This document shows, in pieces, positions 635-40,650 of a stretch of 64,000 bases of DNA. Positions within the stretch are counted from its first letter, which is position 1, and the number at the start of each line of letters is the position of its first letter. Source of the stretch: a virus. The stretch spans positions 62,001 to 126,000 of the IMG/VR virus record IMGVR_UViG_3300008110_000048. The stretch is one strand, 5' to 3'. The translations under genes and the position numbers were made by a program. The notes under the pieces are model-generated. The model was not told the DNA's origin. It did no database searches and worked only from the letters and a program-made list of their open reading frames with translations.

Positions 635-641
635 ATAGTAA
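635..641 (-). promoter_or_regulatory. Putative late promoter box TTACTAT (fibre gene)
   Basis: On the minus strand the sequence reads ATGTTACTATTG, 52 nt upstream of the fibre ATG at 589. It is one of eight copies in front of late-type genes. No -35 hexamer is recognisable upstream. A plus-strand copy of the box at 696 serves the divergent gene. Confidence 0.5.
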
Positions 642-3836: not shown

Positions 3837-3843
3837 ATAGTAA
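3837..3843 (-). promoter_or_regulatory. Putative late promoter box TTACTAT (Cys-rich pair)
   Basis: The minus strand reads TCGTTACTATAT, 37 nt upstream of ATG 3806, in the short gap after the stop at 3854. An inverted copy of ACTATAT lies just upstream, so the site is partly palindromic. Confidence 0.5.
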
Positions 3844-5268: not shown

Positions 5269-5275
5269 ATAGTAA
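5269..5275 (-). promoter_or_regulatory. Putative late promoter box TTACTAT (zinc protein)
   Basis: The minus strand reads TAGTTACTATAT, 39 nt upstream of ATG 5236 and just after the stop of the acetyltransferase gene. It probably starts the unit that continues through the Pro/Thr-rich gene. Confidence 0.5.
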
Positions 5276-13473: not shown

Positions 13474-13480
13474 ATAGTAA
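13474..13480 (-). promoter_or_regulatory. Putative late promoter box TTACTAT (LPXTG gene)
   Basis: The minus strand reads ATCATTACTATATC, 41 nt upstream of ATG 13439. It lies immediately downstream of the terminator at 13485-13523, so the surface-protein gene begins a fresh transcript. Confidence 0.5.
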
Positions 13481-13717: not shown

Positions 13718-13840
13718 TCAGTACATCTTCTTGCCACCCATTTTCTTGGAACCGCCCATTTTCTTGGCGCCCATCTTCTTAGTGCCCATTTTCTTGGATC
13801 CACCCATTTTTTTCTTACCCATACCAGTATGACCAGACAT
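13718..13840 (-). CDS. Tiny Gly/Lys/Met repeat protein, 40 aa
   Basis: After MSGHTGMGKKK the chain is almost entirely five imperfect KKMG-type units (GSKKMGTKKMGAKKMGGSK...) and ends GKKMY. The composition is extreme: Lys, Gly and Met make up most residues. It lies between two genes of the small-protein unit with short spacing. Similar peptides occur in phage late regions. It may condense DNA or decorate the virion interior, but this is inference. Confidence 0.65.
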   Translation of the reverse strand: MSGHTGMGKKKMGGSKKMGTKKMGAKKMGGSKKMGGKKMY

Positions 13841-13842
13841 AA

Positions 13843-14106
13843 TTACACCCCCTTTACTTTGCTTTTGTTTTCGCTTGATTTCTTATAATGCCACATCATA
13901 TGATCATGCATTTGATCATCTACCTTGTCCACCTGTTCGTCAACATGATCTATCTTATGATGTAAATTAAGTATTTCATCCTTAACATCTATCAGCATTG
14001 TTGCAACAACATTGTGATCATTTTTATTTTCAGTTCTACTCTTCTGAACAAGAGCTGCAAGAATTCCGCCTACAGCAGCGATGACAGCAACAATGATGGC
14101 TTCCAT
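13843..14106 (-). CDS. Small membrane protein with coiled coil (DUF2746-like)
   Basis: ATG 14106 gives MEAIIVAVIAAVGGILAALVQK, an N-terminal membrane helix; the longer frame from 14283 lies within the upstream gene and is rejected. The 87-aa product continues with a heptad-patterned helix (VVATMLIDVKDEILNLHHKI, then DHVDEQVDKVDDQ) and a His-rich end. This matches my memory of DUF2746 proteins in actinobacteriophages, sometimes called holin-like. Here it may be a second holin/antiholin or a membrane partner of virion proteins. Confidence 0.65.
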   Translation of the reverse strand: MEAIIVAVIAAVGGILAALVQKSRTENKNDHNVVATMLIDVKDEILNLHHKIDHVDEQVDKVDDQMHDHMMWHYKKSSENKSKVKGV

Positions 14107-15124: not shown

Positions 15125-15179
15125 AATAAAAAAAGACTAGTTATATAGTAACATTTCTGCCACTATATAACTAGTCTTT
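15125..15179 (-). terminator. 18-bp perfect hairpin with U-tract, containing a promoter box
   Basis: Two 18-nt arms (15132-15149 and 15162-15179) are perfect inverted complements around AACATTTCTGCC. In the minus direction the hairpin ends in a run of seven U and follows the gene ending at 15202, so it should terminate that transcript. The downstream arm also includes most of the TTACTAT box of the next unit. Confidence 0.8.
15145..15151 (-). promoter_or_regulatory. Putative late promoter box TTACTAT (small-protein unit)
   Basis: The minus strand reads ATGTTACTATAT, 43 nt upstream of ATG 15108. The box spans the loop/stem border of the terminator hairpin, so the same DNA ends one transcript and may start the next. 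Confidence 0.5.
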
Positions 15180-15500: not shown

Positions 15501-15507
15501 ATAGTAA
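15501..15507 (-). promoter_or_regulatory. Putative late promoter box TTACTAT (AT-hook-like gene)
   Basis: The minus strand reads TAATTACTATAAA, 36 nt upstream of ATG 15471, in the gap after the early-type gene that ends at 15520. It marks the boundary between the early block and the late small-protein block. Confidence 0.5.
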
Positions 15508-17444: not shown

Positions 17445-17963
17445 TTAGTATGTGCTAAAAAAATCAGACTCCATAAAAGAGCCTTTGTCTTCTCTAAATG
17501 AGGCAACTTGCATGGACTGTATTTTGTCCATCAACTTTCTAGCTGACTCCGATGCTATTCTTGCAGCGGATTCCATGGCTTCAGCCAGATTGACAATTGC
17601 CTCACATGTTACTAGAGCAAAGTATTCATCCTCTGCAGCGTCCATAGCTGCAGCCTCTCGCTCTGCTTCGTTTTTTCCTACACGATTTGATTTGTAAACT
17701 TTCTTATATTTCCCTTCCAATATCTTGTACTGAGCTCTAGCTATTCCCGCAAATCTAGCTGCTCTACCGTAAACATTAGACGTTCTAGCGACCAGTGAAG
17801 CTATCTTTTCTATGCCTAAATCTACGACATCAGTTTCCGGAATTTCGATAAAGTATTTGTATGAATTATCGTTGTCATTGTAGGCGTCTATAACTTCTTT
17901 TAGCTGAGGGCCAAGGAACTGCTGTAACATTTCCTGAAGCTTTTCAAGAGTTGAACTATTCAT
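17445..17963 (-). CDS. Conserved alpha-helical phage protein, 172 aa
   Basis: The protein is mainly helical. It contains VDLGIEKIASLVARTSNVYG then AARFAGIARAQYKILEGKYK, and a Glu/Ala-rich segment (GKNEAEREAAAMDAAEDEYF). The Arg/Lys-YK-VYK...GKNEAERE portion resembles proteins seen in other actinobacteriophage replication regions. Its start overlaps the sigma-like gene's stop (ATGA), which couples their translation. Function unknown; a helical adaptor or recombination accessory protein is a guess. Confidence 0.6.
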   Translation of the reverse strand: MNSSTLEKLQEMLQQFLGPQLKEVIDAYNDNDNSYKYFIEIPETDVVDLGIEKIASLVARTSNVYGRAARFAGIARAQYKILEGKYKKVYKSNRVGKNEAEREAAAMDAAEDEYFALVTCEAIVNLAEAMESAARIASESARKLMDKIQSMQVASFREDKGSFMESDFFSTY

Positions 17964-18826
17964 TTAGTCTCCATTTTTAACAGATAGTAAAGTTCTTCAT
18001 ACGAGAACTCGTCTTCCAAAAGGGTTTGTTTAATTTTTTCTCTAACTTTAGACAAATGCTCTCTTACGGTATTTGGATGCTCATTGACAATTTGAGATAT
18101 TTGGCTAGATCTTTTTCCATCAATGTATCTCCACTTTAAAAGCTGTCTTTCTTGTATGGATAGCTTATCAAATGGTCCTTCTACTTTCTCTCCCAAAACC
18201 CAGAATTCATCTATTTTATCAGTTGCCATTAGTTTTTCCATGCTGTACTCTATTGGATCAGCCTTAAACCCAACAACATAATCTTCGTCACTTTCATCGT
18301 TTGTTGCTTCGTCATCAAGGAGTGGGAAAGTCTTTCTGCCAAGTTGATCAATTAAAAATGTATCCACATTTTTCTTTAGAAGATAAAAAAAGTAACTATA
18401 TAAAAATCCACTAAACGGTATCGGCCCCTTTGCTGAATCCTTTCTTTCGTACCTGCCTAGGCATTGGAAGAACGTCATGTAAACTGTCTGCCGAATATCT
18501 TCTTCATCGCCATATCTTTTAGTCATATAATGAATGCCCCGCATTGTTTCATTTACGACTTTTAGATTATTGCCCTTTATTTTATTTTTCATCAAAGCGA
18601 ATCGGGTAGAAGGATCTTTTATGAATAAAGATATAAACCTTCTAATGTCATAATCATTTAAATTAAACTTACAGTGATACAGTAACGAAATATATTTCGT
18701 TAAAAAGTTACTAAAGACTTGTAGCAGTTCTGCTTGAGCTTTTTGCGAACCCCTTTTGCTATCTGCTATTAGTTTTTGCATCTCGTCTTCTGCTAAAGAA
18801 TAATATTGTTCTTTATAACTTGTCAT
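17960..18826 (-). CDS. Sigma-70-like RNA polymerase sigma factor
   Basis: ATG 18826 is chosen (AAGGA upstream, ATGA overlap with the nuclease gene). The 288-aa product has an N-terminal helical part. Residues 106-152 (GDEEDIRQTVYMTFFQCLGR, then PIPFSGFLYSYFFYLLKK) recall sigma region 2. A variable acidic linker follows. Residues 222-267 are a sigma region 4 helix-turn-helix: LSIQERQLLKWRYIDGKRSS, then QISQIVNEHPNTVREHLSKV. Region 4 contacts -35 DNA or the beta-flap. I infer that it redirects host RNA polymerase, perhaps to the TTACTAT late boxes. A LuxR-type or other HTH regulator cannot be excluded. Confidence 0.75.
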   Translation of the reverse strand: MTSYKEQYYSLAEDEMQKLIADSKRGSQKAQAELLQVFSNFLTKYISLLYHCKFNLNDYDIRRFISLFIKDPSTRFALMKNKIKGNNLKVVNETMRGIHYMTKRYGDEEDIRQTVYMTFFQCLGRYERKDSAKGPIPFSGFLYSYFFYLLKKNVDTFLIDQLGRKTFPLLDDEATNDESDEDYVVGFKADPIEYSMEKLMATDKIDEFWVLGEKVEGPFDKLSIQERQLLKWRYIDGKRSSQISQIVNEHPNTVREHLSKVREKIKQTLLEDEFSYEELYYLLKMETK

Positions 18827-19389
18827 TTTTTTCCTTCCCAGCAAACTATATATTCGCTGTAATAATCTCTAAAATCTTCGTAAAAAATAATATTTGGTAC
18901 TTCTAAATCTTTCATAAAGTTCTTTGCGTCGTTTGAATACTTACTTATGACGCAGGTAAAGTTTTCAAATTCATCTGGATAATATCTCTTAAACCTTTTT
19001 AATTTTATCTTACTCTTATCATCTAGGTATCCTTTTATTTCTACCCAATCGTTATTTCTATTTAAAAGAAAGTCTGGAGTATATCCTTTGGTTCCCCTCT
19101 TAATTGGGAAAGAAAAAACAGTAGGTTCAAATTGAAAATCAATTTTATAGATTCTTAATACTCTAACAAAATTTGCTTCCCAGCTAGAACGGACATTCAT
19201 GTCTATATCTTTTCTGTATCCAGTTTTGGTATACTGATACGCGTTTCCTTTTTTCCTGGAAATTACAGCGTCGTTTTCAATTATCTCAGAATCAATAGAT
19301 TTGTTCCTGATGTTTTTCAAATTGGGATGTTTTTTAAAAGAAGATTTCTCCAAAAAAAACTCTTCTGGGTTGACAATCTGTATGGTCAT
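18823..19389 (-). CDS. PD-(D/E)XK endonuclease (T7 endonuclease I/TnsA-like)
   Basis: ATG 19389 is chosen because AAAGGA lies 6 nt upstream. The 188-aa product has the restriction-type core: Glu in RSSWEANFVRVLRIY, Phe-Glu-Pro in IDFQFEPTVFSFP, PDFLL and the catalytic Lys pair VEIKGYLDD. The SSWE...PDF...VEIKG arrangement matches phage endonucleases related to T7 Endo I and TnsA. It probably cleaves branched DNA or host DNA. It is the first gene after a strong -35/-10 promoter and is coupled to the sigma-like gene. Confidence 0.75.
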   Translation of the reverse strand: MTIQIVNPEEFFLEKSSFKKHPNLKNIRNKSIDSEIIENDAVISRKKGNAYQYTKTGYRKDIDMNVRSSWEANFVRVLRIYKIDFQFEPTVFSFPIKRGTKGYTPDFLLNRNNDWVEIKGYLDDKSKIKLKRFKRYYPDEFENFTCVISKYSNDAKNFMKDLEVPNIIFYEDFRDYYSEYIVCWEGKK

Positions 19390-19426: not shown

Positions 19427-19455
19427 AGTATACACTATCTTGGTAAAAAAATCAA
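19427..19455 (-). promoter_or_regulatory. Sigma70-type early promoter (TTGATT-17-TATACT)
   Basis: On the minus strand TTGATT at 19450-19455 and TATACT at 19427-19432 are separated by 17 bp. Transcription would start near 19420, ~30 nt before ATG 19389. It drives the nuclease, sigma-like factor and RNase H operon and lies back to back with the plus-strand promoter at 19462. Confidence 0.7.
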
Positions 19456-19690: not shown

Positions 19691-19726
19691 AAAAAAAGGC
19701 CGGGGGAAACCCCGGTCTTTTTTTTT
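19691..19726. terminator. Bidirectional intrinsic terminator
   Basis: A GC stem (GGCCGGGG with CCCCGGTC) is capped by a GAAA tetraloop and flanked by seven A and nine T. It serves the 58-aa gene on the plus strand. On the minus strand it follows the gene ending at 19725, whose stop codon lies in the T-run. Confidence 0.93.
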
Positions 19727-27642: not shown

Positions 27643-29102
27643 CAATCAAATCCTTCTCCATTAAGCAGATCTTGCAAATCTGTACTTTCAGTATATGAAT
27701 TTTCATCAACAACTTGATAGTCTTCATATATTTTCTTTTCATCATTATAACGAACCAATGGTGGATCATAAAGAAAAGCAGAACCAGTTATTCTATTCTT
27801 TGGTATCTGCAGCTGCATGATATTCTCATCTTCGGTTTCATCTTGGGTCGCCAAACGTTTTTCGGTGATAAAGATAGTTACTGCACACTTTTGCTGAATA
27901 GCAAGAGAGCCACCAGTGTCAGATTGCTGGACAACCTCTCTTCTTTCTTTCATTCGATTGGCGTTTTCTTGCGCAGTTATTATTAGAGCGCAATTCATAT
28001 CTCTAGCTAGCTTTTCCAGCTTAACCATCATCTCTTCAAATTCGCCCCATCGTGGCTTGCCTTTTCCATTGCCTCTGGTAAACATCGACTGTATTGTGTC
28101 GATGATCAAAACATCAGGAACCTTGTCTGCATGGCCTATTAAATCTCTAAGCCAAAATTCCAGATCCTCAAAATATGGGGTATCAGGGTCATGCCTAACC
28201 ATAAGGCGATCACCCCATTTTTCTAATCTAGACTTAAAAATAGATATGTAATCTAGCTTTTCTTTTTCTGACCACTTTTCCGCTTCAGAATATACATTCT
28301 TACCTATAATCTGGGTCATCAATATTCTTTCCCAGTGGCCAACAGCTTCTTCGAAATTTACATACAGAACTCTATGACCAGTGTCTAACCAATGATTGGC
28401 CAAACACTTTGCAAATGTACTTTTGCCTTTTCCTGATGGAGCAATGATTGCATGAACAGCTCCCTTAAAAAATCCACCATCTTCAGTATAACCCATTGCT
28501 TTATTTAGAGCCTTAAATTGCGTTGGCATAAAGCTTGGTATATCGAGCAGATCATCCGCCCTAGACATAATATCTGAAGCAGTGGTTAGCTTATCAAATG
28601 GATTGTACTTTATAGAGTTTTCCAAGTCTTTAATCTTTGAAGTTAACTCTGATATTCTTGAGGTATCTTCTTCAGACTTAAGGCCCTTTTTGTTTATTAG
28701 TATCTGTAGTTCTTGTAGATAATTTATCTGTTTTCGCTTATTTGCTTTGTGCTTAATTAGCTCTAAAACAGACTCCTTACTTCCAACATCAATACCAAGA
28801 ACAAAGTCAAGCATGATTGATAGTCCGGTGTCGCCACCAAGAGCATTATAAATATCTGTTTCTGACTGAAGCCAAACTTTAAATGCTACAGGATCTACTA
28901 CATCTAATGCCGTGGCACGATAGAATCCCAGCAACGCTTCATAAAACTCATGTACGCCTTTTTCTCCATGAATAATTCCTACTATGTCACTAGGAAGATT
29001 GTCATTAAAGAATTGTACAGCCCCAGGCTGCTTAAGGCATAATGAGAACGCATGATACTCTATCGGTGACTTTTCTAGATCAGGTACTTCTTCTGCGATC
29101 AT
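27642..29102 (-). CDS. DnaB-like replicative DNA helicase
   Basis: The 486-aa product has an N-terminal helical domain (about 1-150), a coiled linker, and a RecA-fold ATPase: Walker A IIAPSGKGKSTFAK near 215, a Walker B-type segment PDVLIIDTIQSMF near 325, and CALIITAQENANRMK with SDTGGSLAIQQKC, as in DnaB/SF4 helicases. ATG 29102 overlaps the upstream gene by 23 nt. It would form the hexameric ring that unwinds the fork ahead of the phage DnaE, with the AEP primase nearby. Confidence 0.9.
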   Translation of the reverse strand: MIAEEVPDLEKSPIEYHAFSLCLKQPGAVQFFNDNLPSDIVGIIHGEKGVHEFYEALLGFYRATALDVVDPVAFKVWLQSETDIYNALGGDTGLSIMLDFVLGIDVGSKESVLELIKHKANKRKQINYLQELQILINKKGLKSEEDTSRISELTSKIKDLENSIKYNPFDKLTTASDIMSRADDLLDIPSFMPTQFKALNKAMGYTEDGGFFKGAVHAIIAPSGKGKSTFAKCLANHWLDTGHRVLYVNFEEAVGHWERILMTQIIGKNVYSEAEKWSEKEKLDYISIFKSRLEKWGDRLMVRHDPDTPYFEDLEFWLRDLIGHADKVPDVLIIDTIQSMFTRGNGKGKPRWGEFEEMMVKLEKLARDMNCALIITAQENANRMKERREVVQQSDTGGSLAIQQKCAVTIFITEKRLATQDETEDENIMQLQIPKNRITGSAFLYDPPLVRYNDEKKIYEDYQVVDENSYTESTDLQDLLNGEGFD

Positions 29103-29736
29103 CAATTTTTGAACCTTTTATTTTTCTGTATAGTTTTTTCTTGTACTCAGAATTTTTCTTTTTTGCTTCTTGATAAGCTGGATTAGACTTTATGGAAGTC
29201 TTGTGAACTGGCTTTGAAACATGATCAGTTTCTCTTATTGCTGTTAACATTCTATCATATACAGCCTGCTCAGTTAGCAGATCATTGTACCTAAAAACTA
29301 TTAGAGCTATTCCATTATCTAGGCAATACTGGACTTTTTTTTCATCTCTTTTTTTAGCTTGTTCAAAATCATACTTTGACTCAAAAAATCTACTAGTGTA
29401 GTAAAAGTGCTGTCTGCCATGATACTCTGCCGCTATTTTATACTTAGCACAAAATACATCAAACTTTAACTTGTCACCAATATGATATTCGTTAATAATT
29501 TCTTCTCCAGGAAGGAGCTTTTTCATAATTAAAGTCAGAGCTGTTTGGCCTCTAGACATTTTTTTTCTAGAGTTTTTTAACCAAGATAAACCAAGAGAAT
29601 TGATTTTTTTATTAACTTCAGCTATAGAGACATTTAATTGCTTTGCGATTTCGCTAACAGATAAAGACGTATCAAAAAGAAGATCAGTAAGGAATTCTAT
29701 GTCATCTTCTTCTAGCTTTTTGTATTCTTTTTTCAT
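29080..29736 (-). CDS. PD-(D/E)XK endonuclease with N-terminal HTH
   Basis: The 218-aa product has an N-terminal helix-turn-helix (TSLSVSEIAKQLNVSIAEVN). A nuclease core of the Vsr/DUF559 type follows: LKFDVFCAKYKIAAEYHGRQ, then KKVQYCLDNGIALIVFRYND. Asp in KFDVF, Glu in AAEYHG and the neighbouring His/Gln give the active-site pattern. The C-terminus is highly basic. It could cut branched DNA or mismatches or act as a homing-type nuclease. Its place next to the helicase favours a replication or recombination role. Confidence 0.7.
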   Translation of the reverse strand: MKKEYKKLEEDDIEFLTDLLFDTSLSVSEIAKQLNVSIAEVNKKINSLGLSWLKNSRKKMSRGQTALTLIMKKLLPGEEIINEYHIGDKLKFDVFCAKYKIAAEYHGRQHFYYTSRFFESKYDFEQAKKRDEKKVQYCLDNGIALIVFRYNDLLTEQAVYDRMLTAIRETDHVSKPVHKTSIKSNPAYQEAKKKNSEYKKKLYRKIKGSKIDDRRRST

Positions 29737-40643: not shown

Positions 40644-40650
40644 ATAGTAA
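40644..40650 (-). promoter_or_regulatory. Putative late promoter box TTACTAT (virion protein, 40 kb)
   Basis: The minus strand reads AAATTACTATAAG, 39 nt upstream of ATG 40611, in the gap after the tail-protein array. It would start a short unit covering the virion protein and two small membrane proteins. Confidence 0.5.

Follow-up and report, generated by a model that had tools for sequence, protein, structure and literature searches.

A 288-aa protein encoded by a large, uncultivated phage from a lake is homologous to the sigma70 family over regions 2 and 4. The homology is well supported, and the corresponding activity is predicted. Its gene occupies 17960..18826 on the minus strand (ATG at 18826, stop at 17960) of the window, i.e. 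the whole stretch of 64,000 nt analysed here, which spans 62001-126000 in a virus record of 193,454 bp; positions given below are those of the window. We consider it probable that this phage sigma factor redirects the host RNA polymerase to a class of late promoters characterized by the box TTACTAT.

Homology to the sigma70 family

Region 4 (residues 220-265; 18032..18169, minus strand) was recognized by Pfam PF08281 (Sigma70_r4_2) with 28.6 bits against a cutoff of 25.7. Region 2 is divergent, and Pfam Sigma70_r2 was silent on the window protein. Matches including region 2 came from PHROG 1740 (residues 76-275, E 1.3e-8) and from PHROG 351 (residues 45-271, E 5e-6), which also matches gp28 of phage SPO1; for L206 the PHROG 351 profile, which covers both domains, reached E 7e-10. 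TIGR02937 matched all nine of the members scanned (best E 1.3e-10), the member given as the example scoring 39.9 bits, just under the curated cutoff of 42.9. Profile comparison aligned residues 101-267 with RpoE, FliA, RpoH and gp28 (Prob 94.3, E 9.9e-8), against Prob ≤ 0.7 for unrelated or reversed controls. The alignment used for this comparison included the homologues from Moorella phage MTATph1 and Bacillus phage KLEB27-3 described below; HHalign against single sigma factors was not significant when these distant homologues were left out of the profile. The window protein is collinear with RpoE; it has region 2 and region 4, and no clear region 3.

When AF2 was run on the full length with 28 similar sequences, the C-terminal half was poorly modelled (pLDDT 64). 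Residues 1-180 were therefore modelled by themselves; with 39 sequences, they reached a pLDDT of 81 and a pTM of 0.76. In the PDB, this model came closest to region 2 of sigma-E in complex with -10 DNA (prob 0.98). Sigma subunits also made up most of the 50 leading fold matches; the E-values were weak (0.2). Among the best matches to viral models was a phage 'DNA directed RNA polymerase subunit'. The BFVD entry A7KUW7, which we take to be possibly from phage 0305phi8-36, also matched (TM 0.71) and may extend the SLF-containing family defined below. The sequence-only reading had claimed a region-2-like helical section and a region-4 helix-turn-helix, and had named structure prediction and profile comparison with sigma families as ways to check them: both domains were recovered, and both analyses led to sigma factors.

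Region 2 and its insertion

The first region-2 helices (residues 9-50; 18677..18802, minus strand) resemble the N-terminus of SigF, SigI and SigH: they are helical in the AF2 model, their best PDB profile match is the sigma factor 1l0o, and the NCBIfam SigI and SigH N-terminal models match them. Next comes an insertion of ~54 aa relative to the ECF sigmas (residues 51-104; 18515..18676, minus strand), defined from the alignment and from AF2, with modelled helices at 59-66, 72-79 and 85-105. It follows the first pair of region-2 helices and precedes the helix that carries D-x2-Q. Within it, RRFISLF (residues 62-68; 18623..18643, minus strand) is the core of a family signature, R-x3-SLF-x2-D-x3-R, which is common to three distant lineages and in which D71 is changed to E, rarely to another residue, in a few members. 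Regions 2.1 to 2.4 follow (residues 105-166; 18329..18514, minus strand), with residue roles transposed from sigma70: the D-x2-Q pair (D110 and Q113, both invariant in the clade) lies where sigma70 has its core-binding motif, and PFSGFLYSYFFYLL would form the 2.3/2.4 helix.

Full-length homologues carrying the SLF signature are found in MTATph1 (WPA89561) and KLEB27-3 (gp089), with 22-24% identity (22% for Moorella, 24% for KLEB27-3) and E-values from 1e-5 to 8e-10. Searches of viral contigs for more distant relatives returned the same clade, a search with the Moorella protein gave no more distant relatives, and none were found in the bacterial genomes searched. On sequence criteria, the window protein is a divergent member of the sigma70 family with an insertion.

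Genomic context and operon promoter

The sigma gene is housed in the replication module, together with genes for a helicase (27642), a Pol III-type DNA polymerase (21270) and an exonuclease (19725), the last being upstream of the resolvase gene. Its operon starts with a Holliday-junction-resolvase-like endonuclease gene (18823..19389, minus strand), which overlaps the sigma start (ATGA), and continues with the gene of a 172-aa protein (17445..17963, minus strand), the start of which overlaps the sigma stop (ATGA); genes for a putative RNase H-like protein and then a dNMP kinase are listed after it in the module. The sigma ORF is kept in 72 to ~300 IMG/VR contigs. The exonuclease-resolvase-sigma-172-aa order was held in nearly all of those that were long enough (72 contigs), and in most contigs a few bases (ATGA) are shared between the sigma gene and its neighbours. 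The 172-aa gene is translationally coupled to the sigma gene in most relatives; its product, for which Pfam and PHROG searches gave no match, is a possible partner or coactivator of the sigma factor.

Directly before the resolvase gene there is a host-type promoter, TTGATT-17-TATACT (19427..19455, minus strand), separated from the upstream exonuclease gene by a terminator-like hairpin (19700..19715, minus strand), so that the order is exonuclease, hairpin, promoter, resolvase. In a generic scan for sigma70 promoters, the number of sites did not exceed that in shuffled sequences, and we therefore used only the promoter that is conserved between relatives: about 50 distinct relative sequences read TTTGnnn...TGTATAAT at this position. 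There is no late box upstream of the resolvase-sigma operon. The operon had been described from the sequence as having a conventional early promoter. The promoter itself stands; that it acts early is what we infer from its host-like sequence.

The TTACTAT box

In the genome of the window phage, no 7-mer is more over-represented before genes than TTACTAT in the orientation of the gene. The box occurs 18 times before an RBS and start codon, against a mean of 4.5 for 105 permutations, of which it is the best, and it also ranks first in the relatives G002 (tied with TACTATT), G003 and G005. Among 60 orthologous upstream regions from eight relatives, 49 had the exact box, for a permutation mean of 1.7. 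Eight regions had one mismatch, at least six of them only at the first T, so that TACTAT appears as the fixed core. Outside this core, information is low: no -35 element was found at either fixed or flexible spacing from the boxes, which are also without extended -10 TG and have an almost invariant C. An A is favoured at the would-be +1 position (26 out of 37).

The distribution of the box is uneven, with none in the left arm (47 kb, 82 genes) and 17 in two segments containing late-type genes. The boxes considered here, all on the minus strand, are at 635..641 (45 nt before a 1418-aa gene), 3837..3843, 5269..5275, 13474..13480 (34 nt ahead of a 447-aa gene whose product has weak Ig-like matches), 15145..15151, 15501..15507 (not kept in the one relative compared) and 40644..40650 (32 nt upstream of a 210-aa gene next to the structural block). 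A box lies immediately before the tail sheath gene, and the major head (capsid) and portal proteins are encoded in the same block; for most of the other genes directly behind a box, no function is assigned. From its position and conservation, TTACTAT is a true -10-only promoter class at putative virion genes. The -10-only box claimed earlier at 635-641 and 13474-13480 is thus real, there and elsewhere, and far above chance.

The single TTACTAT of the replication block, at 17990, lies within the end of the sigma gene; it was rejected as a promoter, being a coding occurrence present in one genome only. Two arrangements outside the window may be mentioned. A tandem pair of boxes, 19 bp apart, is found just beyond its end (window 126814 and 126833, minus strand; record 188814 and 188833), where it precedes a 472-aa gene and adjoins GGGGGGAA-type repeats. 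In the same record (window -14521 to -14505, plus strand), and also in the close relative G001, TTACTAT stands one base after a host-type TGATATAAT, an arrangement that is possibly an early/late double promoter.

Reading of the box

The assignment of the box to the phage sigma comes from elimination and from the logic of a regulatory cascade. A host-type promoter in front of the operon together with a -10-only class at the virion genes makes the succession of host sigma and then phage sigma, the latter for late genes, the simplest cascade. As to elimination, no other protein of the contig passed the Sigma70_r4_2 cutoff, the only other match (14 bits) being in an HNH endonuclease. Beta and beta-prime subunits of RNA polymerase were not found in the contig, nor was a YonO-like/RdRP polymerase in the genome; a genome-wide search for a T7-type polymerase, run without positive control, was negative. 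An HNH/homing-type endonuclease (29080-29736, minus strand) has a small helix-turn-helix weakly resembling region 4.

The main competing explanation, which we regard as rather unlikely, is that the protein is a real phage sigma serving another promoter class (middle, like SPO1 gp28) and that the late box is read otherwise. The presence of the gene in the replication region would fit a middle sigma as well, as would the match to PHROG 351, a family also matching gp28. The distant homologues point the same way, as no recognizable TTACTAT class was found upstream of the structural genes of MTATph1 and KLEB27-3; however, this neither proves nor refutes the link between sigma and box, because late genes there are in long operons and their promoters may differ. 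Against this explanation, no second conserved phage-specific promoter class was seen, the top upstream 7-mers being the box and its neighbours, and the contig has no second recognizable sigma.

Somewhat less probable still is a reading of the boxes by the host primary sigma with the help of a phage activator, the sigma-like protein then being an inhibitor or an accessory factor. TACTAT is within the usable range of a primary sigma and shares T-12, A-11, A-8 and T-7 with the usual -10, and cyanophage Ma-LMM01 was reported to have host-type promoters in all phases (PMC5780444). The boxes, with neither -35 nor TG and with their near-invariant C, are nevertheless unlike the TATAAT promoters of the same genomes, and D110 and Q113, at the core-binding position, are invariant in the clade. 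Finally, the protein could be a DNA-binding regulator with a LuxR/GerE-type or sigma-4-like helix-turn-helix and no sigma function: a GerE match of 22.9 bits, the LuxR-type chains which lead the single-sequence PDB search and the silence of Sigma70_r2 go in this direction. Against it are the identification of region 2 by the PHROG and TIGR02937 profiles, by profile comparison and by fold, and the deposition of the KLEB27-3 homologue as a sigma70-ECF factor; we see this explanation as very improbable.

If the phage sigma reads the box, as we favour, it would be made from the host-type promoter together with the replication genes, and its region 2 would bind the host RNA polymerase core, region 4 probably contacting the beta flap. 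Region 2 would also recognize the -10 box, (T)TACTAT, the sole sequence element of the late promoters, and virion genes would be switched on through these promoters, presumably late. One feature sits uneasily with this scheme: from a sigma with an intact region-4 helix-turn-helix, one would expect recognition of a -35. Our guess is that region 4 is kept for anchoring to the flap or for contact with a coactivator, perhaps the 172-aa protein.

Comparison with other systems

Among the closest counterparts are gp089 of Bacillus phage vB_BauM_KLEB27-3 (UNY39858, 'RNA polymerase sigma factor') and WPA89561 of MTATph1. They have the same SLF insertion as the window sigma and similar neighbourhoods, with a RuvC-type resolvase, a Cas4-type exonuclease and replication genes. 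Their hosts are Firmicutes. Bacterial ECF and group 3-4 sigmas (TIGR02937) have regions 2 and 4 without clear region 3, as does the window sigma; the latter differs by its ~54-aa insertion in region 2 and its score below the TIGR02937 cutoff. The SPO1 sigma factors gp28 (middle, PHROG 351) and gp34 (late, PHROG 1025) also consist of regions 2 and 4, but they are without the insertion, and direct pairwise profile comparison of them with the window sigma was not significant. SPO1 promoters carry both -10 and -35 elements.

T4 late promoters have a -10-region element only and are served by the phage factor gp55 on the host core; gp55 is devoid of region 4, which is supplied by a separate protein, gp33 (PMC2988020). 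A functional parallel with gp55, independent in sequence, had been suggested for the window protein, and it holds in part. The late promoters of the window phage likewise have a -10-region element only, and the two proteins are unrelated by our comparisons (gp55 belongs to PHROG 234, which the window sigma does not match, and hhalign gave Prob 0.2). The parallel is incomplete in that the window sigma has region 4 in the same chain as region 2. In T4, gp55 acts together with gp33 and gp45; a search for a bacterial-type sliding clamp in the window phage found none.

The absence of any fused late sigma is raised as a question in a review on late transcription in T4 (PMC2988020), and the family of the window sigma is a candidate for such a factor. 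The arguments for and against are about evenly balanced for the view that it is a natural 'fused' late sigma, with domains 2 and 4 and a family insertion in one chain, serving -10-only promoters in a large phage whose DNA polymerase is of the Pol III type. A survey of jumbo phages reported a group 3, which includes Pol III-type phages, as without sigma factors (PMC7824862), and no sigma was recognized in the 0305phi8-36 paper (PMC2147016). Divergent sigmas may have been overlooked, as is suggested by the SLF-containing family, which occurs in two named large phages whose replication modules are similar.

For an abundant clade of uncultivated phages, there is now a testable transcription programme, with one candidate regulator and a defined set of promoters, and in these contigs the box can be used to predict virion operons from sequence. 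We also noted a small ORF (13740-13850, minus strand) which is rich in Lys, Gly and Met and contains short repeated motifs.
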